Positions 3,786 to 54,919 of a stretch of 64,000 nt of DNA are shown here, one piece after another. Positions within the stretch are counted from its first letter, which is position 1. The number at the start of each line of letters is the position of its first letter. Both the position numbers and the translations under genes were made by a program. The notes below the pieces were generated by a model. It was not told where the DNA came from and did no database searches. It saw only the letters and a list, made by a program, of their open reading frames with translations. Source of the stretch: Ureibacillus thermophilus (lineage in GTDB: Bacteria; Bacillota; Bacilli; Bacillales_A; Planococcaceae); NCBI RefSeq assembly GCF_004331915.1, contig NZ_CP036528.1:758567-822566 (forward strand), in the 5' to 3' direction.

Positions 3786-3975
3786 AAAAGGGGCTGTCCA
3801 GAAAGTCGAACACTTTCGGAAACAGCCTTACTTCTTATAGTAATATGCTCTTAAAAACTTTCCCTGCGGTGGTTACAAAACGCGCCTCCTCGTCGCAATT
3901 TATCTGCGGCAAAAACTCTAGCTACAGCCGCAAAGGGGGTGTCTCAAAATGACTTTTCAGACGCCCTCTTTTTAT
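3786..3975. repeat. Dispersed intergenic hairpin repeat, copy 1
   Basis: An element of roughly 160-190 bp with a hairpin at each end. The left hairpin is at 3790-3828 (GGCTGT...ACAGCC with an inner AAAGT/ACTTT stem). The right hairpin is at about 3935-3974 (GGGGGTGTCT/CAGACGCCCTC) and works as the terminator of bpsB on the minus strand. The middle part (GGTGGTTACAAAACGCGCC and CCTCGTCGCAAT) matches a second copy at 47585-47748. It runs into the 3' end of bpsB and supplies its last codons. Confidence 0.75.
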
Positions 3976-4498
3976 GAAATGTATATTCTCCATTGGTCGC
4001 TTCTGTTAATGCTTTTTCTTCAAGTGGAATACGTATGGACAATATGATAAAATTTAAAGCTGTGAAAAAAAGGGCTGTGATATAAGCTTGAAACATCATA
4101 GGCAGTAGAACAATTTCGCAGCATACGACAATATAATTTGGATGTTTAAAGAAAGCATAGGGACCTGTCTTTACGATTTTTGCTCCTGGGAGGACGATAA
4201 TTTTTGTATTCCAAAACATTCCTAATGAAATTAGACACCAAATTCTTAAAGCTTGGACTAATAAAAAAATGAAAAATAAATAGATGAAATATGGAGATAG
4301 GGAACGCTGAAATAACATGAATTCAGCAATAAGACTAATGAAAAAACTAACATGGAGCAAAATCATGAATGGGTAATGAAAAGCCCCCACCTCATAAGCG
4401 CCAAGTTGTTTCATATGTCTTTCGTTGCGTTTGGCAATGATTAATTCGATGATTCTTTGCATGATGACAAAAGATATAATGAAAATAAAAATTTTCAA
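3944..4498 (-). CDS. bpsB: Alkylpyrone/alkylresorcinol O-methyltransferase, ICMT family (BpsB/YpbQ)
   Basis: 184 residues with four to five membrane helices and the isoprenylcysteine-carboxyl-methyltransferase-like signature FKHPNYIVVCCEI near residue 130. In B. subtilis the homologue methylates the pyrones made by BpsA (established). I start it at TTG 4498: it is one base after the bpsA stop and has GGAGGG inside the end of bpsA. A longer frame overlapping bpsA exists but its extra residues do not look like the family. The final ten residues (KKRASEKSF region) are encoded by the hairpin repeat that follows, so the natural C-terminus appears to be replaced. Confidence 0.82.
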   Translation of the reverse strand: MKIFIFIISFVIMQRIIELIIAKRNERHMKQLGAYEVGAFHYPFMILLHVSFFISLIAEFMLFQRSLSPYFIYLFFIFLLVQALRIWCLISLGMFWNTKIIVLPGAKIVKTGPYAFFKHPNYIVVCCEIVLLPMMFQAYITALFFTALNFIILSIRIPLEEKALTEATNGEYTFHKKRASEKSF

Positions 4499-4499
4499 T

Positions 4500-5582
4500 T
4501 TACTCCCTCCATTGCAGCAATACCGATTCCCCGCTAAATCCTGGCCCAAGGGCTACCAATAAACCGTAAGAACCCCCTTTCTTGATTCTTTTCATATATT
4601 CATCCAACACATACAGTACCGTCGGCGAAGACATATTGCCGTTTTCTTGAAGAACTTTTCGGGAAAGCTTGATATGTTGGTCGCTTAGATTCAACGCTTC
4701 TTTGTAGGCTAACAACACTTTTTTGCCGCCGGGATGGGCAATAAAATGTTCCAAATCCTTTATTGATAGCCCAACTTCCTCGAAAAATGATTCAATAAAT
4801 GGGCCTAGCCATTTGGAAATAATGGTAGGGATGCTTTTTGAAAAAATGACATGAAGACCATCATTTTTGATATCCCAGCCCATGACGTCCTCAGAGTCGG
4901 GCATCCATTTAGAAGCCGTTCTTATAATAGAAGGAACCATTTTTTGATTTTCCACATTGGCTTCATCGCCGCATACAAGGGCGCAAGCAACGCCATCTGC
5001 AAATAGGGAAGCCCCCACTAAATTGCTTTTGGAAAAATCGTTCCGTTGAAAAGTCAGACTGCATAATTCAACGCACACAACGAGCACTTTTTCTTTCGGA
5101 TGGGCAAGGCAATAATCATAGGCTCTGCTAATGCCTGATGCTCCACCGACGCATCCAAGCCCCCAGATGGGCAACCGTTTGATTCGGTCGGAAAATGTAA
5201 GTTGATTCATAATTCGTGCATCAATGCTTGGTGTGGAGATGCCGGTGCTGGATACAAAGAAAATGGCATCAATTTCTTCTGTAGAAATCGGCCTTTTTAA
5301 ATACATTTCATTTTGGAGGCATTTTTGGATAGCTTTTACGCTATAATCCACAGCTAATTGAATGTATAATTGATTGCGTTCTTCAAAGGTATGCTCTTCT
5401 TTATGCCATTCAAGGGGCACACAAAAATGCCGCTTCTCAATCTCCCCATTCTCAAACACTTTTAATAGCCGATTTAATTGAGGAATATTGTTTTGAAATA
5501 TTGTTTTAGTAAATTGCTCAATTTCTTGTTGATGCAGTGTATAAGGTGGTTGATACTTGCTAACAGAAACAATTTTAGGCAT
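4500..5582 (-). CDS. bpsA: Type III polyketide synthase (chalcone synthase-like, BpsA)
   Basis: 360 residues, the family length. The catalytic triad is visible: Cys144 in GLGCVGGASG, His283 in IAHPGGKKV and Asn316 in NGNMSSPTV. These enzymes extend fatty acyl-CoA starters with malonyl-CoA and make alkylpyrones or resorcinols that enter the membrane. The partner methyltransferase gene follows after one base, so both are co-translated. Start ATG is preceded by a GGAAGAG site. Intact and confidently assigned to family; the exact product in this organism is inference from B. subtilis. Confidence 0.93.
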   Translation of the reverse strand: MPKIVSVSKYQPPYTLHQQEIEQFTKTIFQNNIPQLNRLLKVFENGEIEKRHFCVPLEWHKEEHTFEERNQLYIQLAVDYSVKAIQKCLQNEMYLKRPISTEEIDAIFFVSSTGISTPSIDARIMNQLTFSDRIKRLPIWGLGCVGGASGISRAYDYCLAHPKEKVLVVCVELCSLTFQRNDFSKSNLVGASLFADGVACALVCGDEANVENQKMVPSIIRTASKWMPDSEDVMGWDIKNDGLHVIFSKSIPTIISKWLGPFIESFFEEVGLSIKDLEHFIAHPGGKKVLLAYKEALNLSDQHIKLSRKVLQENGNMSSPTVLYVLDEYMKRIKKGGSYGLLVALGPGFSGESVLLQWRE

Positions 5583-6454: not shown

Positions 6455-7216
6455 TTAATTATTGTTTAAATAATGGACGACGGCATCTCTTAAAAATTCT
6501 GCTGCCCCTTCGCCTTTTTTGTCGTAATATGCTCTAAAGCGTTCATCTGCTACATACATTTCCACAAGTCCTTGATGAGCCTCTTTTGAATAAGAAGACC
6601 AAGTGTAAGTGAGCCATTGTTTATGTTTTGCGGCCAGTTCCCGGGCAAGAGGGGAAGCAGGGTCACCCGTTCTCTTAGCCTTATCCAACAGATTAAGAAT
6701 TTCTTCTGCCAGTTGTTTGAATGCCTCAAAATCTTCTTTTGACATATTGCGGAATTTATTATTGGACCCGTTGACTGCATCGTCGCCGTACTTTTGACGG
6801 ATTTCTCCGCCGTATTTTTGTTCATTTTCTTCTATTAACCGCTCTTTGAAAGCTTCAAATTTTTCTTCATTATTCATTGTCATCTCTCCTTTTTCATGGG
6901 CGATTGTTTTTTTCACAGAATCAATCAATTTGTCCAGTCGGAATCTCTTTTTCATCAGCTGTGCCAAATGGCTTTCCAAAGCTTTGATTGAATCAAAGTT
7001 TGGGTCATTCATAATGGAAAGAATTGTTTCAATGCTGACGCCCAATTCCCGGAAGAATAAAATTTGTTGCAACCGGTCGACTTCTTCTTGGCCATAAATC
7101 CGGTAGCCGGAGCTGTTGATTCTTTTTGGTTTCAATAAATTGATTTCATCGTAGTATCGCAACGTTCTTGTGCTGATTCCTGCTAATTTCGCTAATTGGC
7201 TGATTGTGTATTCCAT
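6455..7216 (-). CDS. MerR-family multidrug-sensing regulator with TipAS domain (Mta/TipA-like)
   Basis: 253 residues. An N-terminal MerR winged helix (residues 1-70, with SQLAKLAGISTRTLRYYDEI) is followed by a long coiled coil and a C-terminal TipAS ligand-binding domain (about 135-250). Proteins of this build bind hydrophobic or thiopeptide drugs and activate promoters with over-long spacers (known of the family). Start at ATG 7216, with GGAGGG upstream; a longer reading would put the ribosome site inside the gene. Its own promoter has the 19-bp spacer expected for MerR control, so it is probably autoregulated. No efflux gene lies next to it. Confidence 0.88.
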   Translation of the reverse strand: MEYTISQLAKLAGISTRTLRYYDEINLLKPKRINSSGYRIYGQEEVDRLQQILFFRELGVSIETILSIMNDPNFDSIKALESHLAQLMKKRFRLDKLIDSVKKTIAHEKGEMTMNNEEKFEAFKERLIEENEQKYGGEIRQKYGDDAVNGSNNKFRNMSKEDFEAFKQLAEEILNLLDKAKRTGDPASPLARELAAKHKQWLTYTWSSYSKEAHQGLVEMYVADERFRAYYDKKGEGAAEFLRDAVVHYLNNN

Positions 7217-7238
7217 TGAAAGCCCTCCTGATAATCTC

Positions 7239-7269
7239 ATCATAAAGGTTAACGTAACGTGAAGGTCAA
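7239..7269 (-). promoter_or_regulatory. MerR-type promoter with 19-bp spacer
   Basis: Minus strand: -35 TTGACC at 7269-7264, -10 TATGAT at 7244-7239, spacer of exactly 19 bp. The spacer carries an imperfect dyad, ACCTTCACGT T ACGTTAACCT, the place where MerR proteins bind. Confidence 0.75.
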
Positions 7270-7361: not shown

Positions 7362-7997
7362 ATGGAAAATAAAGATTTAAAAATTGTGAAGCAGCCAAAA
7401 TATCAAAAGATTGCCGCCGATATCGCCTCCAAAATTGTAGAAGGCAAATATACCATTGGTGAAAAAATTTACGCCAGATCTTCCCTTGCAAGCCAGTACG
7501 GGGTTTCAGCGGAGACGGCAAGAAGAGCAATCGCTGTTCTTCAGGATTTGGAGATTGTGGAAGCGACAAAGGGCAGCGGTGTTGTCATCAAGTCTTACGA
7601 AAAAGCGGCAAATTTTATTAAACAATTTTTGGATGTCGAATCCATTCATCAAATTCAGTTGGAGATGTTTGAAAGCATTGATCGGCAAAAAGAAGAGCTG
7701 GAAAAGTTGAAAGAGATTACCGAAAGATTGGTCAGCCGTACGGAACGATTTCGTTCAATCAATCCTTTTGTTCCTTTCCATATTGAAATAAAAGGGGATT
7801 CTCCGTACTTGTCCAAGACCATTGGGGAAATCAATTTTTGGCACCACACAATGGCAACCATTGTCGGTATTCGAAGAGGAGAAGAATTGATCATTTCACC
7901 GGGACCCTATGCAACCATTGAAATGGATGATGTAATCTACTTTATTGGTAATGACGAATCCTTGGAAAGGGTTCAAAAATTTCTATTTCCTAATTAA
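7362..7997 (+). CDS. BusR-type GntR/RCK_C osmoregulator (probable c-di-AMP sensor)
   Basis: 211 residues. A GntR winged helix lies at about 10-70 (SSLASQYGVSAETARRAI), a coiled coil at 85-125, and an RCK_C/TrkA-C domain at about 130-211. This is the build of BusR from Lactococcus and Streptococcus, which binds c-di-AMP through RCK_C and then represses the betaine transporter busAB (established). Here the next operon downstream is the betaine transporter opuA, so the same role is very likely. Start ATG 7362 is preceded by AAAGG; a TTG three codons upstream is an alternative. It has its own terminator and so is separately transcribed. Confidence 0.85.
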   Translation: MENKDLKIVKQPKYQKIAADIASKIVEGKYTIGEKIYARSSLASQYGVSAETARRAIAVLQDLEIVEATKGSGVVIKSYEKAANFIKQFLDVESIHQIQLEMFESIDRQKEELEKLKEITERLVSRTERFRSINPFVPFHIEIKGDSPYLSKTIGEINFWHHTMATIVGIRRGEELIISPGPYATIEMDDVIYFIGNDESLERVQKFLFPN

Positions 7998-8002
7998 TCA
8001 GG

Positions 8003-8042
8003 GCTTACAAAAGCAAATTTGAGCTTTTGTGAGCCTTTTCTA
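8003..8042 (+). terminator. Terminator after the BusR-type gene
   Basis: Stem GGCTTACAAAAGC / GCTTTTGTGAGCC with one mismatch, followed by TTTTCTATT. Confidence 0.85.
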
Positions 8043-8073
8043 TTAATTTTTAGCAGATTTTGAGAGTGGTAAT

Positions 8074-8117
8074 TTGACTAAAGTAACAACTTATTGTTAT
8101 TATAGAGTTGTTACTTT
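8074..8117 (+). promoter_or_regulatory. opuA promoter with BusR-like operator
   Basis: -35 TTGACT at 8074-8079 and a -10-like TTATTA at 8097-8102, 17 bp apart. A perfect 12-bp inverted repeat, AAAGTAACAACT (8080-8091) and AGTTGTTACTTT (8106-8117), brackets the -10. A repressor bound to both arms would block RNA polymerase. Confidence 0.75.
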
Positions 8118-8150: not shown

Positions 8151-9353
8151 ATGGAAAAAATTAAAGTGGAACATGTGACGAAAATATTTGGGAAACATGT
8201 GAATGCTGCCTTAAAACTTGTAAAACAAAAAAAGCGCAAGACGGAAATATTGAACGAAACCGGTGCGACAATCGGGGTATACGATGCAAATTTCACGGTG
8301 AATGAAGGTGAAATTTTTGTCATTATGGGACTATCCGGAAGCGGTAAGTCGACATTGATCCGTATGTTAAACCGGTTGATTGAACCTACAAGTGGAAACA
8401 TCTACATCGATGGTCAAAATATATCGAAGTTGAATAAAAGGGAATTAAGAAACATCCGGAGAGACAAAATGAGCATGGTATTCCAGAACTTTGGTTTATT
8501 TCCTCATCGAACGATTTTGCAAAATACGGAATATGGCCTCGAAGTGAAGGGAGTACCAAAAGAGGAAAGACGATTGAAAGCAGAAAAGGCTTTAGACAAT
8601 GCCGGTTTATTGGCTTATAAGGACCAGTATCCAAGTCAATTGTCAGGCGGTATGCAACAGAGAGTCGGTCTTGCAAGAGCCCTTGCAAATGATCCAGACA
8701 TATTATTGATGGATGAAGCTTTTTCTGCTCTCGATCCACTCATTCGGAAAGAAATGCAGGATGAATTGTTAGAACTGCAACAAAAAATGAAAAAGACGAT
8801 TGTCTTTATTACCCACGACTTAAATGAAGCTCTTAGAATAGGGGATCGCATTGCATTGATGAAGGATGGACAAATCATCCAAATTGGAACAGGAGAAGAA
8901 ATATTGACAAATCCGGCAAACGATTATGTTCGAAGCTTCACGGAAGATGTGGATCGTTCAAAAGTGTTGACGGTGGAAAACGCCATGATACGGCCTGTGT
9001 CCATCAATATTGAAGCGGACGGTCCAAAAGTCGCTTTACAGCTGATGAGGGAGGAAAAAGTGAGCGTCATTTTGGCTGTTGATAAGCAAAGAAATTTCAA
9101 AGGTTATATTACAGCCAGTGATGCTCACGAAGCTTCAAAACGGGGTGAAAAGCATCTTCATGGAATATTGAGGCAAGATATGTTGACCGTTTCACCAGAT
9201 ACGTTGATCCAAGATGTATTAAGCCCGATTTCCGATTCGTCGACACCGATTGCTGTTGTAAAGGACGAGAAACTTATGGGCGTATTGATAAGAGGAGTCG
9301 TTATTGAAGCGTTATCTGCATCGAACAGAAGTGGAGGTGTTGACGATGAATAA
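8151..9353 (+). CDS. opuAA: Glycine betaine ABC transporter ATPase (OpuAA)
   Basis: 400 residues. Walker [10 protein letters not shown] near residue 62, signature LSGGMQQR near 165 and Walker [14 protein letters not shown] near 183, followed by tandem CBS domains (about 280-390) that gate OpuA transporters by ionic strength or nucleotides. Energises uptake of glycine betaine under osmotic stress. ATG 8151 is chosen because AGAGGTG stands 7 bases ahead; two in-frame starts upstream overlap that site. The end overlaps opuAB by 8 bp (ATGAATAA), so the genes are translationally coupled. Confidence 0.94.
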
Positions 9354-10197
9354 AATGTTGGATTCGATTCCTTCACTCCCGATTGCCGATTGGATTGAAA
9401 CGTTGATGGATTGGCTGACGGAAAATTTTGCATCCATGTTCAGTTTCATTCAAAAAACGGGCAAGAATTCAATGGAATCCTTTACTGATTTATTGTTATA
9501 TATTCCACCCATTGTATTTATCTTGATTGTTGCAATCATCGCATTTTTTGCGACGAAAAAAAAATTTGGTTTAGCTGTATTTTCGGTTGTAGGGTTGTTG
9601 TTTATTTATAATCAGGGACTTTGGAAAGAATTGATGAACACCGTCACTTTGGTGGTATTTTCAAGTATTTTCGCCATCCTGATAGGCATTCCCATTGGTA
9701 TTTTAATGTCAAAAAGCAGAGTGGCGGAAAACATCATTAAGCCAATTTTGGATTTCATGCAAACCATGCCGGGGTTTGTATATTTAATCCCGGCTGTCGC
9801 CTTTTTCGGCATTGGTGTTGTTCCAGGGGTATTTGCATCGGTTATATTCGCATTGCCGCCTACCGTAAGATTTACGAATTTAGGAATTCGCCAAGTACCG
9901 AAAGAACTGGAAGAAGCGGCGGATTCCTATGGAAGTACGGGATGGCAGAAGCTATTTAAATTAGAGCTTCCATTAGCAAAATCGACCATTATGGCAGGAA
10001 TCAATCAAACGGTGCTCTTATCATTATCAATGGTTGTGATTGCATCAATGATTGGCGCACCTGGATTGGGACGCGATGTGCTGTCCGCATTGCAAAGGGC
10101 ACAAGTTGGAAACGGATTTGTTGCGGGAATTAGTCTGGTGATTTTTGCTATTATCATTGACCGTTTAACGCAAAGCTTGAATAAAAAGAAATATTAA
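9346..10197 (+). CDS. opuAB: Glycine betaine ABC transporter permease (OpuAB)
   Basis: 283 residues, about seven membrane helices, with the EAA loop [19 protein letters not shown] (near 190-208) that docks to the ATPase. Start ATG 9346 has GGAGGTG upstream and lies inside the end of opuAA. Central gene of a complete three-gene OpuA system. Confidence 0.94.
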
Positions 10198-10215: not shown

Positions 10216-11094
10216 ATGAAAATAAGGAAGTTTATGATATTTGTTTTCGCAATAGGCTTAAGTGCCCTATTGGCCGCATGTGGGGGAAATGAGGAAGAAG
10301 GGACTGCCAAGAAGGGAGAGAAAGCAATCAATTTAGCCTATGTTGAGTGGGATTCGGAAATCGCATCCACCCATGTCATCGGGAAAGTATTGGAGGATTT
10401 AGGTTATGAAGTTACACTGACACCATTAGACAACGCCATTATGTGGGAAGCGGTTGCCAATGGAGAAGCCGATGCATCAGTAGCAGCTTGGCTTCCGGTA
10501 ACCCATGGTGCTCAATACGAAGAATATAAAGAAGATATTGTCGACTTGGGTGAAAATTTGGAGGGTGCCAAAATCGGATTGGTGGTTCCAGCATATATGG
10601 AAGATGTCAATTCGATTGAAGATTTATCAAATCATGCGAATATGCAAATCACAGGAATCGAATCGGGTGCCGGTGTGATGCAGGCAACGGAAAGAGCCAT
10701 TCAAGAATATGCTAATTTAAAGGACTGGGAATTGGTTCCATCTTCATCAGGAGCGATGGCGGTCGCTTTGGGAGAAGCGATTAAAAAGAATGAAGAGATT
10801 GTTGTGACTGGATGGACGCCTCACTGGAAATTTGCAAAATACGAATTGAAATATTTAGATGATCCAAAAGGAGTATTTGGAGGTGAGGAATCTATTCATA
10901 CCTTTGTGAGAAAAGGGTTAGAGGAAGAAATGCCGGAAGTCTATCAAGTATTGGATAATTTCCACTGGACAACCGAAGACATGGAGGAGGTCATGCTTGA
11001 TATATTTGATGGCATGAGTCCGAAAGAAGCGGCTGAAAAATGGGTGAAAGAAAACGCAGATAAAGTGGCTGAATGGACTGCAGAAAAGGAATAA
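10216..11094 (+). CDS. opuAC: Glycine betaine-binding lipoprotein (OpuAC)
   Basis: 292 residues. The signal peptide ends in a lipobox LSALLAAC, so the mature protein is anchored to the outer face of the membrane by Cys22. Aromatic residues that would form the betaine cage are seen in YVEWDSE, AWLPVTHG and TGWTPHWKF. Preceded by GGGAGGAAG 18 bp after opuAB, followed by a strong terminator. Confidence 0.94.
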   Translation: MKIRKFMIFVFAIGLSALLAACGGNEEEGTAKKGEKAINLAYVEWDSEIASTHVIGKVLEDLGYEVTLTPLDNAIMWEAVANGEADASVAAWLPVTHGAQYEEYKEDIVDLGENLEGAKIGLVVPAYMEDVNSIEDLSNHANMQITGIESGAGVMQATERAIQEYANLKDWELVPSSSGAMAVALGEAIKKNEEIVVTGWTPHWKFAKYELKYLDDPKGVFGGEESIHTFVRKGLEEEMPEVYQVLDNFHWTTEDMEEVMLDIFDGMSPKEAAEKWVKENADKVAEWTAEKE

Positions 11095-23162: not shown

Positions 23163-23259
23163 AAAACTTGCGTCAATGATCTTAATTGAACCGCCGTATA
23201 CGGAACCGTACGTACGGTGGTGTGAGAGGACGGGAGTTAATCGCTCCCTCCTACTCGAT
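23163..23259 (+). mobile_element. Group IIC intron 3'-end fragment (copy B)
   Basis: Matches the last 97 bases of copy A almost exactly: the end of the maturase (ACTTGCGTCAATGA), domain V (CCGCCGTATACGGAACCGTA) and domain VI ending CTACTCGAT. Domain V here keeps the canonical pairs. No 5' part is attached; it sits 60 bp past the putP remnant. Confidence 0.88.
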
Positions 23260-36068: not shown

Positions 36069-36086
36069 TTTGAGGAGCTGAAATTG

Positions 36087-36986
36087 ATGGACAATGTACA
36101 ACCCTTTTTAAAATGGGCTGGTGGAAAACGACAATTACTACCTGAAATCAGAAAATACTACCCAGAAAAATATAATACCTATTATGAGCCTTTTGTTGGT
36201 GCTGGTGCTGTATTGTTTGATTTGAAACCGACAAATGCAGTTATTAATGATACGAATGAAGAATTGATAAATGTATATAAAGTAATTAAGGATAGAGAAA
36301 AGCTAGAATTATTAATAAATGACTTGAATGCACATAAAAATGATCCTGATTACTACTATTACATTAGGAATTTAGATAGAGAAGAAGCTTATAAGAATCT
36401 TCAAGATTATAAAAAAGCAAGCCGGTTTATTTATTTGAATAAAACTTGTTTTAATGGATTATATCGAGTGAACAGTAAAGGACAATTCAATGTTCCTTTT
36501 GGAAAATATAAAAATCCAGACTATGTAAATGAAGCTGTTTTGAGATCTGTTCATGATTTTTTAAATAACAATACCATAGAAATTTTAAATCAAGATTTTG
36601 AAGCGGCTGTAGAAAACGCATCATATGGTGACTTTGTTTACTTTGATCCACCATATCATCCGATTTCTAAAACTTCTTCGTTTACCTCTTATACTGATAA
36701 CGGTTTTAGTGAAAGTGACCAAAAAAGATTAAGAGATACTTTTAATAGACTTTATGATAAAGGTTGTTATGTTTTACTAAGTAATTCTAATACAGAATTT
36801 ATTCATGATATTTACTCTGAAATTAAAGGAATTCAAATAATAAAAGTTGGTGCAAATAGAAGTATAAATTCAAAAGCAGATAAAAGAGGGAAAATAGAGG
36901 AGGTTCTGATTATAGGAGATGGGAGAAAAAAAGACAAAGAACGACAAAGCTTGGGAGGAGTTATTCCAAAAATACAATATACTTAA
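36087..36986 (+). CDS. Type II DNA adenine methylase 1 (Dam/DpnII-like, D12 class)
   Basis: 299 residues. PFLKWAGGKRQLL is the SAM motif (FxGxG-type N-terminal signature of the D12 class) and VYFDPPYHPISKTSSFTSYT holds the catalytic DPPY. This is N6-adenine methylation of the Dam/M.DpnII kind. Sequence specificity is not provable; GATC is typical of the nearest group. GAGGAG precedes ATG 36087. The last 68 bp overlap the restriction enzyme gene in another frame, a tight coupling that ensures methylase comes first. Confidence 0.9.
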   Translation: MDNVQPFLKWAGGKRQLLPEIRKYYPEKYNTYYEPFVGAGAVLFDLKPTNAVINDTNEELINVYKVIKDREKLELLINDLNAHKNDPDYYYYIRNLDREEAYKNLQDYKKASRFIYLNKTCFNGLYRVNSKGQFNVPFGKYKNPDYVNEAVLRSVHDFLNNNTIEILNQDFEAAVENASYGDFVYFDPPYHPISKTSSFTSYTDNGFSESDQKRLRDTFNRLYDKGCYVLLSNSNTEFIHDIYSEIKGIQIIKVGANRSINSKADKRGKIEEVLIIGDGRKKDKERQSLGGVIPKIQYT

Positions 36987-38205
36987 TGAAATAGAGAAAA
37001 ATGGATTTTATGAGATCCTTGCAGATCAAATCCGTGAATATAGAGAACCGCGATTGATGTGTAAATTTGATCATAAAAATAATTTACCTGATATATTTGA
37101 GAAAAATAATTTAAACATCCTTCCTTTATCTACGAAATCCTATATCATTGGGGATTTTAAATTATTTGAAGATATAAAATATGATGAAAAACAGAAACCG
37201 CAGCAAATGAGTATCCCTGCATATATCGAAAGTGTTAAACCAACAGATTTATATAGTGAAGCTTCTGCATTGCATTGTGCATATATAACGGGAATGATCG
37301 ATGATTTTATAAATGAGGAATCTATATTTGCGGTCAGTGGAAGAATGGGATCAGGAGATTTTCATTATAATGTTTTAAGCAGTGTAGGTACTTCTAAACA
37401 AATTAATGTGAGTGGAGCTCAAATTGAAATTGATGGCGGTTATGAAAGTCACTCAAACTTTGTTTTAATTGAAGCCAAAAAGCAGAAAGTTAAAAATTTT
37501 AATATCCGTCAATTATATTATCCATATCGGGTATGGAAAGGAAGAATCAATAAAACGATTAAACCGGTTTTCTTTACGATTTCTAATGATGTATTTTATT
37601 TTTTTGAATTTAAATTTGAAGATGATAATATATTCAATTCTATTTCTTTAGTTAAACAGAAAAGCTACACCGTGAATTATGAAAAAATCACACAACAAGA
37701 TGTAGATTATGTAGTAAATAGAGCAACAACATTTGTTTCAGAACCTAAAGTACCATTCCCACAAGCAGATGATTTTACAAAGGTTATCGATTTACTTTCT
37801 TATCTTTATGAACGGGATATGACTAAAGATGATATTGCAGAACAACTAGACTTTGATAAAAGACAATCTGATTACTATTACAATAGTTGCCTTTATTTGG
37901 GATTAGCTAATAAGTATACGAATGAAGAAGGAACATTTGCTACATTAAACGATAAAGGAAGAGAAATAGTGCGTCTTCCTTTTAGACAAAAGCGATTAGC
38001 TCTTGCAGAATTAATTTTGCAACATGAGATATTTAAAGAAATATATGATAAGACTGTCACAGAAGGAGAAGTAAGTACAGACTACATTGTCAGTCGAATG
38101 AAACATCATAAATTATATAATATTAATTCGGAATCAACATTTAAGAGACGCGCTTCAACAATACGAGGTTGGGTTAAGTGGATAATGGAGTTGCCAAATG
38201 ATTAG
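36919..38205 (+). CDS. Putative type II restriction endonuclease
   Basis: 428 residues. The start (KNDKAWEELFQKYNIL) resembles other Dam-associated restriction enzymes. A PD-(D/E)XK-like core is seen at IEIDGGYES...FVLIEAKKQ (around 170-195), with Asp and Glu-x-Lys as likely metal ligands. The last third looks like a winged-helix region (SDYYYNSCLYLGLANKY). It would cut unmodified DNA at the site methylated by its partners. Located between two adenine methylases. The family (a DUF6997-type) is recalled with moderate confidence; the recognition site is unknown. The frame is intact. Confidence 0.78.
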   Translation: MGEKKTKNDKAWEELFQKYNILNEIEKNGFYEILADQIREYREPRLMCKFDHKNNLPDIFEKNNLNILPLSTKSYIIGDFKLFEDIKYDEKQKPQQMSIPAYIESVKPTDLYSEASALHCAYITGMIDDFINEESIFAVSGRMGSGDFHYNVLSSVGTSKQINVSGAQIEIDGGYESHSNFVLIEAKKQKVKNFNIRQLYYPYRVWKGRINKTIKPVFFTISNDVFYFFEFKFEDDNIFNSISLVKQKSYTVNYEKITQQDVDYVVNRATTFVSEPKVPFPQADDFTKVIDLLSYLYERDMTKDDIAEQLDFDKRQSDYYYNSCLYLGLANKYTNEEGTFATLNDKGREIVRLPFRQKRLALAELILQHEIFKEIYDKTVTEGEVSTDYIVSRMKHHKLYNINSESTFKRRASTIRGWVKWIMELPND

Positions 38206-38226
38206 TTTTTCCATTTATATTTTGTG

Positions 38227-38258
38227 GGGCTAGTTAAAATAACTAGTTCTTTTTTTAT
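38227..38258 (+). terminator. Terminator after the restriction gene
   Basis: CTAGTTA / TAACTAG stem, 3-base loop, followed by TTCTTTTTTT. Confidence 0.75.
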
Positions 38259-38911
38259 TTATATATAGAACGTATGTTCTTTTTATATTATAATTGAAAA
38301 AAATGTAGGGGGTGGCAGATTTGTTAATGACGGTTCCTTCAAAAAATGGAAATATTTTAATTAGAGAACAAAGTGCTATTTACATAAGCAATATAATTGA
38401 ACATAAAAAGGTAGAAGGAGGACCTTTCGTTAAATGGGCAGGTGGAAAATCAAAGCTAGTAGAAATTATTTTGAATATTGTAGCAAGACATATTAATTTA
38501 GATGAAATTGAACATTATATTGAGCCTTTTGTGGGTGGAGGAGCTATGTTTTTTTATTTGGCATCCCGTTATCAATTTAAGTCGTATACTATCATAGACA
38601 TTAATTTGGATCTTATAAATGCTTATAGAGCAATTAAAGAAAATCCAATTTTGTTAGTAAAAGAAATGGATAAAATCCAAAATAAATATAATGATTTCTC
38701 ATGTTTTAATGATAAAGAGATGTTTTATTATGAAATTCGAGATAAATATAATAACTATGCTAATAAAGAAAATTTATTTGAATTTATAGACTTTAACCGG
38801 GCGGCTCAATTTATTTTTTTAAATAAGTCCGGTTTTAATGGATTATATAGAGTAAATAAATCTGGTGATTATAATGTTCCATTTGGCAAAAAAGAAAAAA
38901 TAAAAATTTAC

Positions 38912-40454
38912 TGTATTTTGCAATAGAAAAGTGCAGAGAAATGCAATTAAAAATGCAGAGGTTTGCCACCCATTTAATTCCTTTTCGACAATGCGTGGGA
39001 CAGTCTATAGTGAGAAACTAATAAACTAGCTAGAGCTTCTAATCGTTTTCGTCGAATAATTAAATTATCTACCAACAAAAATTCTTTAATTCTTCCCGGT
39101 AAATACTTATGATAGCGCGAATATTCTACAACCCTTGGTTTATGAATCCATGTTTTAATTATTGAAAGCCATGGTAATGCTTTTCGCTTTTTCATATATG
39201 GCCGATAGTCATCCAATAATATCTCCCCATTAGGTGAAACAATCTTTAATTGATCCCATGTTAATATCATTTGTAATTGACTATAGTTGCCACCCTTAGG
39301 GACATGAACCAACGTCTGATCCACTTTCACTTCATTATATTTGTTTACTTTAACAAGATGCTCTTTAAATACAGGATAGGGCTTTTCCGGTAATGCTAGA
39401 AGATAATCCCGTTCTTCCTGCCATAAGTCCTCAATACGTACGTTTTTGGCATAATGAATTCTATTTCTGTCCGCCTCTAATTTATGAAATAATTGATTAG
39501 TTAAACCCTCATAGCTGTCCATTATTGGAGCTGAAGTAAAAAAGTTATAGCGTATATATCCAACTTTATTCTCAACATTTCCTTTTTCATGGCCACTTCT
39601 TGGATTGCATACCTGCACATCAAAGCCATAATAATGCTGAAATTGAACAAATTCATCAGTTAATTGTGCTTCTTCATTTTTTGTCCTTTTTTTCTTCACA
39701 GCGGGGGTCAAATTATCGATTCTTATCCTTTTAGGTACTCCCCCAACCTGTTTAAAAAGAATATTGAGACCATGTAAGAAGCATTCTTGATTTTCAGCTG
39801 GTAACGGTACTGCAAATCCAGCATTACTATGAGGAAACGTCATAACTAAAGCATGAATATCCACAATTTCTCCATCTTGTACAGCTTCCATTACTCCAAA
39901 GTCTACTTGAGCTTCACCCGGAGGATGTTCTAATCTTTCATACCCTTTATCCTTTTCTTCTTGGTGAGTATTCATCCATTCAGAGATAAAGTAACAAACA
40001 GTACGATAAGAACCTTGGAAACCCATTTCCTTTAGTTCTTCAAATATTTGTTTCTTTGTTCTTCTTAATTTTTTCCTTAACTTTAAATCCTCAAAAAGCC
40101 AATCTGAAACAATTACTCCCCACTTTTCCTCATACATCATCCCTTTCTTTTTAAATGATTTCTGTTTAGGGAGTTGATCTTCATCCGCATACTTCTTAGC
40201 TGTTCGCCAATTAATTCCCATTGTTCTTTGTATTTCTGAAATAGATAAACCTTTGTTATTTCTTAAATGTTTGATACAATTAATATCAGACATTGCTAGC
40301 ATCCTTTCTTACCTCCACTACCAATTGCTTGACACAATTACTGTAGTGGGACTTGGGGTGACTGGCAAGTCTTTTTTTGTTTATGCACAGAAATTTAGTG
40401 CAGGACTCTGCATTTTTCCTTTGCAAAGCTCTGCACTTTTATTTTGCCATACAC
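38912..40454 (-). mobile_element. IS21-like element with istA only
   Basis: 1.54 kb. The ends share imperfect inverted repeats of about 48 bp (TGTATTTTGC/TGTATGGCAA, AAAGTGCAGAG, AAAAATGCAGAG). The 8-bp target duplication AAATTTAC is at 38904-38911 and 40455-40462. IS21 elements normally carry istA and istB (2-2.5 kb); here only istA is left and 62 bp separate its stop from the end. Confidence 0.9.
38974..40293 (-). CDS. istA: IS21 transposase IstA
   Basis: 439 residues. N-terminal helix-turn-helix (SISEIQRTMGINWRTAKKY), then the DDE core: Asp in GEAQVDFG, Asp in KRIRIDNL and Glu in KGNVENKVGYIR. The C-terminus is somewhat shorter than usual. The helper ATPase IstB, needed for target choice and full transposition, is absent from the element. 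ATG 40293 has AGAAAGGATG upstream. Intact frame. Confidence 0.9.
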   Translation of the reverse strand: MSDINCIKHLRNNKGLSISEIQRTMGINWRTAKKYADEDQLPKQKSFKKKGMMYEEKWGVIVSDWLFEDLKLRKKLRRTKKQIFEELKEMGFQGSYRTVCYFISEWMNTHQEEKDKGYERLEHPPGEAQVDFGVMEAVQDGEIVDIHALVMTFPHSNAGFAVPLPAENQECFLHGLNILFKQVGGVPKRIRIDNLTPAVKKKRTKNEEAQLTDEFVQFQHYYGFDVQVCNPRSGHEKGNVENKVGYIRYNFFTSAPIMDSYEGLTNQLFHKLEADRNRIHYAKNVRIEDLWQEERDYLLALPEKPYPVFKEHLVKVNKYNEVKVDQTLVHVPKGGNYSQLQMILTWDQLKIVSPNGEILLDDYRPYMKKRKALPWLSIIKTWIHKPRVVEYSRYHKYLPGRIKEFLLVDNLIIRRKRLEALASLLVSHYRLSHALSKRN

Positions 40455-40871
40455 AAATTTACGACGATAAAAATCTTTTAAAAGTTTACGAAGTGTTACA
40501 GAAAACAACTATTGTCCATGGGGATTATAGACAAATTGCAGATTATTTAAAAAGGAATACATTTGTATATTTTGATCCGCCATATAGACCGATATCGAAT
40601 ACCTCTTCCTTTACTGCTTATAATCATAATGGTTTTAATGATGAAGACCAAATAGCTTTGGCTCAATTTTGCATGCAACTATACATTCAAGGAATTCGTT
40701 TTGCATTAAGTAACTCCGACCCGCATAATACAGATCCATCTGACGATTTTTTTGACGATTTATATAAAGGATTTAATATTTATCGCATAAGTGCACCAAG
40801 ACAAATTGCTGCCGAATCTAAAAGTAGGAATAGAGTGACAGAGCTCTTAATTGTGGGATAAATCTATCTAA

Positions 40872-54290: not shown

Positions 54291-54919
54291 GTGCGCCCGG
54301 CATGTACATGAACGATAGGGTGTAAGTCCCGAACCCCGAAGACAGAAGTAGAGGTTAGCTCAACGCAAGGGTGTCCGTGGTGACGCGGAATCTGAAGGAA
54401 GCGATCGGCAAACTTCCGGTCTGAGGAACACGAACTTCATATAAGGCTAGGTATCATTGGATGAGTTTGCTAAACAAAACAAAGTCCTTTCTGCCAAAGG
54501 TGGTACAGAGTAAATGAAGCAGATAGATGGAAGGAAAGATTACATTCTTACCCGGGGAGGTCTGGCGGATAGGTGAAGTACGCTTCATAACCTACTTAGT
54601 GATAAGTAGCTGAACCGTCAGAAGTCAGCAGAGGTCATCGTATTAGTTGGTTTAGAACTACTAAGAAGGACCGAACAATTAAGAGAGAATAGCCCTTTGC
54701 ATTCAGTGAGTCATGATGAACACAGAAAACGTAGTACCTCACTTGAGGAAGGAAGCGGTGAATCCCGTGGGAGACCTCTTGGAGGGTGGAGTGACCACTG
54801 GCATAAAGAGAACAGCTAATCACGGAAGGAGAATAACGATGCTTTTGAATCAAATCCTGTCACGGGAGAACATGCTTCAAGCACTAAAACGTGTAGAACA
54901 GAATAAAGGAAGCCACGGA
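54291..54919 (+). mobile_element. Group IIC intron 5' part (copy C) with maturase start
   Basis: Starts GTGCGCCCGGCATG and is nearly identical to copy A through all 5' domains. Unlike copy A it retains the beginning of the maturase at ATG 54839 (NQILSRENMLQALKRVEQNK then GSHG). Homology stops near 54919, so more than 95% of the maturase and domains V-VI are missing. Confidence 0.9.

Follow-up and report, generated by a model that had tools for sequence, protein, structure and literature searches.

The locus examined here lies in a 64-kb window, the whole stretch of Ureibacillus DNA analyzed, and consists of a regulatory gene, busR (positions 7362 to 7994), followed by the three genes of a glycine-betaine importer, all on the positive strand. 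The busR product is a 211-residue protein in which Pfam, phmmer and an AF2 model identify a GntR winged helix, a coiled coil and an RCK_C domain; its Pfam matches to GntR (PF00392, 4.9e-12) and TrkA_C/RCK_C (PF02080, 2.2e-14) are both above cut-off. Downstream, opuAA (8151 to 9353) encodes a glycine-betaine ABC transporter ATPase with ABC_tran and CBS (PF00571) domains that scores 485 bits against TIGR01186, the proV subfamily model (cut-off 326.6), opuAB (9346 to 10197) encodes a permease (BPD_transp_1, PF00528), and opuAC (10216 to 11094) encodes, as a separate gene, a lipoprotein glycine-betaine-binding protein (PF04069, 1.6e-72). With its proV-family ATPase carrying CBS, its permease and its OpuAC binding protein encoded in a single operon, this importer is of the OpuA type. 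A preliminary description of this DNA had placed a GntR and RCK_C protein immediately ahead of opuA in the DNA of a Bacillales host, and both points hold; the boundaries it gave, 7362 to 8117, are correct, with the functional unit running on to 11094 through the three opu genes.

Divergent from busR is a gene encoding a MerR/TipAS antibiotic-recognition regulator (6455 to 7243, negative strand), and the two genes have a 118-bp intergenic region in common. Also on the negative strand, translations read by eye at 3944 to 5582 indicate a type III polyketide synthase resembling chalcone synthase and, after it, a small gene for a methyltransferase-like integral-membrane protein. Elsewhere in the window, the segment from 36084 to 40861 contains a D12-class DNA adenine methylase gene with an adjacent possible restriction gene (DUF6996/6997/7226) and a second D12 methylase gene split into halves (38312 to 38926 and 40253 to 40861) around an rve-domain, IS21-like transposase gene (38974 to 40302). 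Two group II intron D1-D4 RNA matches are located on the positive strand at 980 to 1276 and 54374 to 54671 (Rfam RF02001 and RF01998), along with a third, weak match at 23189 to 23259.

The best relative of known structure is Streptococcus mutans BusR (7wjg; phmmer, 1.6e-48), and Streptococcus agalactiae BusR (SgaBusR, 7b5t) matches at 1e-43, both over nearly the full length, as the earlier assignment to the BusR type would lead one to expect. Residues 11 to 206 align with both proteins, with no indels in the coiled coil, so that the length of the ruler (residues 81 to 150) is kept relative to SgaBusR. The AF2 model contains a helix at residues 95 to 133 in this linker, and BusR chains rank first in structure comparison with the model. 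The lone chain was modelled with a mean pLDDT of 83 and a pTM of 0.41; because this pTM is low for one chain of an expected tetramer, the ruler geometry is drawn from the alignment rather than from a modelled complex. DNA-contact residues R38, R53, G70 and G72 are kept, while K36 is replaced by Y and K54 by R. The domain architecture (winged helix, coiled coil and RCK_C), the coiled-coil length and the c-di-AMP pocket are shared with the S. agalactiae and S. mutans proteins (7b5t, 7b5y, 7oz3, 7wjg; PMC8517857, PMC5919688). The BusR encoded in the window is 96% identical to that of U. terrenus and 90% identical to that of U. thermosphaericus. An OpuAR/GbsR identity, with its MarR-type fold, was ruled out by the GntR and RCK_C composition of the protein. 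Judged by these matches, the product of 7362 to 7994 is a BusR orthologue.

The c-di-AMP pocket, loss of which would have counted against the preliminary description, is largely intact. With the SgaBusR pocket list as reference and residue numbering anchored on Y13, W159 and H160, 10 of 12 positions are identical (I153, G154, N157, W159, H160, A164, T165, I166, G180 and P181) and the two changes, V158 to F and F182 to Y, are conservative, the latter having been reported as common. The model RCK_C domain superposes on c-di-AMP-bound 7b5u with an rmsd of 1.0 Å and a TM-score of 0.88 to 0.91, and the source genome carries one diadenylate cyclase (DAC domain) gene.

The busR gene ends in a terminator-like hairpin (8000 to 8037, positive strand) with a 15-pair stem and a T-rich tail, which was also recovered as an inverted repeat; with this hairpin closing busR, opuA has its own promoter. 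A scan of the positive strand places a -35-like TTGACT at 8074 to 8079 and an extended -10, TGTTATTAT (TGT-TATTAT), at 8095 to 8103 with its hexamer at 8098 to 8103, giving 10 of 12 matches and an 18-bp spacer between TTGACT and TATTAT. Around the -10 lies the perfect 12-bp inverted repeat with a 14-base gap that had been noticed earlier, and it is confirmed at 8080 to 8117. The left arm, AAAGTAACAACT (8080 to 8091, positive strand), abuts TTGACT and is a predicted BusR half-site whose AAGTRACAAC core is kept in relatives; the right arm (8106 to 8117), which reads AGTTGTTACTTT on the positive strand, is a predicted half-site on the negative strand at GTAAC-N22-GTTAC spacing from the left one. 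The arms are complementary at 12/12 positions across the 14-nt gap, and the dyad covers the opuA promoter, lying between and over the -35/-10 pair, as the site of S. agalactiae and S. mutans BusR does. A second copy was found at up to 3 mismatches neither in the 64-kb window nor in 100 shuffles.

The spacing of this dyad, which was absent from the preliminary description, connects it to the known regulator. All four experimentally determined BusR sites have the form GAC-N22-GTC with 22-bp spacing, and the coiled coil of the SgaBusR tetramer acts as a molecular ruler such that insertion of 5 bp or removal of 10 bp abolishes binding (PMC8517857). The Ureibacillus triplets are spaced identically, as AAC-N22-GTT. 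The triplet GAC, however, has been described as essential in SgaBusR, and both arms of the Ureibacillus dyad carry AAC, with an inner AAC as well; the system would therefore be a variant of BusR control and not an identical member.

The predicted operator precedes opuA at every one of the 69 related busR-opuA loci examined, at 0 (36 loci), 1 (22), 2 (5) or 3 (6) mismatches to AAGTAACAACY-N14-RGTTGTTACTT, and this recurrence places the dyad far beyond chance. GTRAC and GTYAC are paired at a gap of 22 in 56 of 72 related intergenic regions, the next commonest gap being 8 (nine regions). TTGAC immediately precedes the left arm in 62 of the 69 relatives, so that predicted operator and promoter are interwoven, as they are at the S. 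agalactiae site lying over -35 and -10. Across 261 genomes of the order, busR is present in 88 (8 of 19 genera), including Ureibacillus, Lysinibacillus, Solibacillus, Metasolibacillus, Kurthia and Rummeliibacillus, and all 88 have a site at up to 3 mismatches, whereas none of the 173 genomes lacking busR has one at up to 1 mismatch. Matches in 18 of these 173 are all at 2 to 3 mismatches and are attributed to chance: 0 of the 12 that were fetched adjoin an OpuAC or OpuA gene, and a reversed-pattern control likewise gives scattered single matches. The dyad is lacking upstream of OpuA genes in members without busR. Regulator and predicted site thus appear as partners across genomes of the order. 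The source genome has no site at up to 3 mismatches other than that of opuA, so the dyad motif lends no support to busR autoregulation.

Taken together, we regard it as highly probable that this locus is the BusR-opuA osmolyte switch of Ureibacillus. BusR would have a transcription unit to itself. When turgor and K+ are sufficient and intracellular c-di-AMP is high, one c-di-AMP would bind between two RCK_C domains and free the autoinhibited winged helices, and the coiled-coil ruler of the tetramer would set two of these on half-sites AAAGTAAC and GTTACTTT, which are separated by 22 bp. Their positions, within the -35/-10 spacer and around +1, would deny RNA polymerase the use of the promoter, and opuAA-opuAB-opuAC, and with it glycine-betaine uptake, would be off. 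Upon hyperosmotic shock, c-di-AMP would fall, BusR would release and opuA would be expressed. We infer c-di-AMP binding, the direction of its effect and the tetramer from work on S. agalactiae and Lactococcus lactis (PMC8517857, PMC5919688, PMC10243994).

Two other readings of regulator and dyad were weighed against this switch. The GntR-RCK_C protein could bind the dyad but answer mainly to ionic strength or K+, or have lost its nucleotide response; binding by L. lactis BusR, according to a review, depends on ionic strength as well, and pocket positions vary within Caryophanaceae, where positions 154 and 164 are variable and 11 of 16 sampled BusRs have Q at the phosphate-contacting position 160. 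The Ureibacillus protein has H at 160 and a pocket identical apart from V158F and F182Y, and the DAC gene together with the superposition of its RCK_C model on the c-di-AMP-bound form makes such a response improbable. That the dyad is instead an AT-rich hairpin, serving as a second busR terminator or an RNA element, is suggested by the perfect complementarity of its arms and the five T that follow, but is scarcely credible given that a terminator-like hairpin for busR is already present at 8000 to 8037, that the arms lie inside a promoter and are kept across genera while the loop is not, that the dyad recurs upstream of unlinked OpuAC genes and its presence follows that of busR, that arms in lactic acid bacteria (LAB) have another sequence at the same 22-bp gap, and that Rfam has no match at the dyad.

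Of particular interest is the half-site code. Caryophanaceae half-sites read AAGTRACAAC, all 144 of them with the inner AAC; at seven LAB loci the half-sites are AAGTGACCAY, 13 of 14 having an inner C, and at 20 clostridial loci they are AAGTAACAAY. G occupies the first triplet position in 20 of 144 Caryophanaceae half-sites versus 14 of 14 in LAB. Three winged-helix columns, 36, 69 and 78, separate Caryophanaceae and clostridia from LAB and streptococci without exception, although the clostridial BusR rows were found partly by a pattern containing Y36. Residue 36 is Y in the former and K or H in the latter, and residue 69 is K (once P) versus H or Q, Ureibacillus having Y36 and K69. A K36A substitution in SgaBusR showed that position 36 matters for DNA binding (PMC8517857), and position 69, next to G70, belongs to the wing loop. 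BusR of Caryophanaceae probably reads AAGTRACAAC, not the AAGTGACCAY of streptococci and LAB, through residues 36 and 69; since the switch in code is a single evolutionary change, the residue-base link is proposed as a hypothesis. Two sister clades with the same ruler and different half-site letters would make the BusR DNA code testable by a few residue swaps.

A wider set of predicted sites is present in sister genera. Further, mostly perfect, unlinked sites occur in Lysinibacillus, Solibacillus, Metasolibacillus and the L. odysseyi group, and all 30 of the non-redundant, fetched sites at up to 1 mismatch lie 26 to 115 bp upstream of stand-alone OpuAC-type lipoprotein genes. Five more sites at 2 mismatches likewise precede OpuAC-type genes, and two at 2 to 3 mismatches precede a ProV-type ATPase. 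These orphan binding proteins either have the domain order of Ureibacillus OpuAC, one of them being 61% identical to it, or, in about half of cases, are circularly permuted, with Pfam and BLAST matching both halves in swapped order. The location of the sites leads us to predict that BusR coordinates OpuA with binding proteins in trans, and BusR of the sister genera very probably controls stand-alone betaine-binding lipoproteins in this manner. The search for the arm upstream of other osmolyte genes, proposed in the preliminary description, returned nothing but opuA in the source genome and, besides opuA, OpuAC-type genes in sister genera; as the single OpuAC above cut-off in the source genome is that of the operon, the wider regulon is no feature of this genome.

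In a BusR tree with other GntR-RCK_C proteins of Bacilli as outgroup, Ureibacillus BusR falls in the ingroup with LAB and streptococcal BusR (100/98), in agreement with the relationship first proposed. Within it, Caryophanaceae (99/91) and clostridial BusR (97/91) are sisters (98/94), with LAB and streptococci (98/94) apart. In an OpuA ATPase tree, the busR-linked OpuAs of Caryophanaceae and the sampled LAB form one clade (100/98), and those of busR-less relatives fall away from it. The conflict hinted at by the two topologies is not significant, as a BusR clade of LAB and Caryophanaceae is not rejected (p-AU 0.07). Outside the BusR clade, other Bacilli encode GntR-RCK_C proteins of 31 to 37% identity, most of them without a neighboring OpuA-like ATPase and a few adjoining an OpuC-type ATPase. 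A second, distant GntR-RCK_C regulator (group g10, 30 to 35% identical), for example near Lysinibacillus alkalisoli, adjoins SIR2-like deacetylase and cytochrome bd genes in translations read by eye.

Clostridial BusR-like regulators, of which we take C. difficile BusR to be one, share the AAGTAACAAC half-site code, 22-bp spacing, Y36 and R54 with Ureibacillus, but neighbor a ProV/OpuC-type ATPase and a fused permease-binding protein in place of OpuA. One such ProV-type ATPase has a double CBS, and the permease-OpuAC fusion is seen where the locus was read to its end. Caryophanaceae may accordingly have taken a clostridial-type BusR from an OpuC/ProV-type transporter and joined it to their own opuA, a history that the sister relationship of the two BusRs and their common code would favor. 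We consider this independent wiring unlikely, as the BusR-linked OpuA ATPases of Caryophanaceae and LAB are one clade, the BusR data are compatible with a clade of these two groups, and the clostridial rows were fetched by similarity, so that sampling is biased. A single ancient busR-opuA unit is the most economical reading, clostridia having put a close relative to use at an OpuC-type operon. The suggestion that the wiring is a separate use of the same sensor is, on the evidence of the single OpuA clade and of wiring as in LAB, mostly unsupported in its strong form, and stands insofar as the half-site code and the sister-genus regulon differ.

In L. lactis and other LAB, busR is also directly upstream of an OpuA-type operon (PMC6108528, PMC10243994), whereas in S. 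agalactiae it is unlinked to busAB and has two operator sites. LAB differ from Ureibacillus in having the binding protein fused to the permease, where Ureibacillus has a separate OpuAC lipoprotein, and in their GTGACCAY half-sites. Within Bacillales, a repressor gene also directly precedes opuA in Bacillus infantis, however the protein, OpuAR, is of the unrelated GbsR/MarR type and is induced by choline and glycine betaine, not c-di-AMP (PMC6207618). The literature searched contained nothing relevant on BusR in Lysinibacillus or on c-di-AMP in Planococcaceae or Lysinibacillus sphaericus; the wiring is known, and neither the Caryophanaceae host family nor the half-site code nor the orphan binding-protein regulon turned up there.

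On balance, it seems fairly likely that BusR of Caryophanaceae, and of clostridia, has kept the 22-bp ruler and switched its half-site alphabet (AAGTRACAAC, Y36/K69), and that in several genera it controls both opuA and unlinked stand-alone glycine-betaine-binding lipoproteins, of which some are circularly permuted. In this way c-di-AMP would set transporter number and, in addition, how plentifully binding proteins are supplied in trans and which ones. The additional sites next to orphan binding-protein genes would then constitute a predicted regulon for which the literature searched offered no counterpart. An intact and conserved system through a large spore-former family indicates that promoter-level control of betaine uptake by c-di-AMP extends to Bacillales, where it would stand beside the substrate-sensing OpuAR type.
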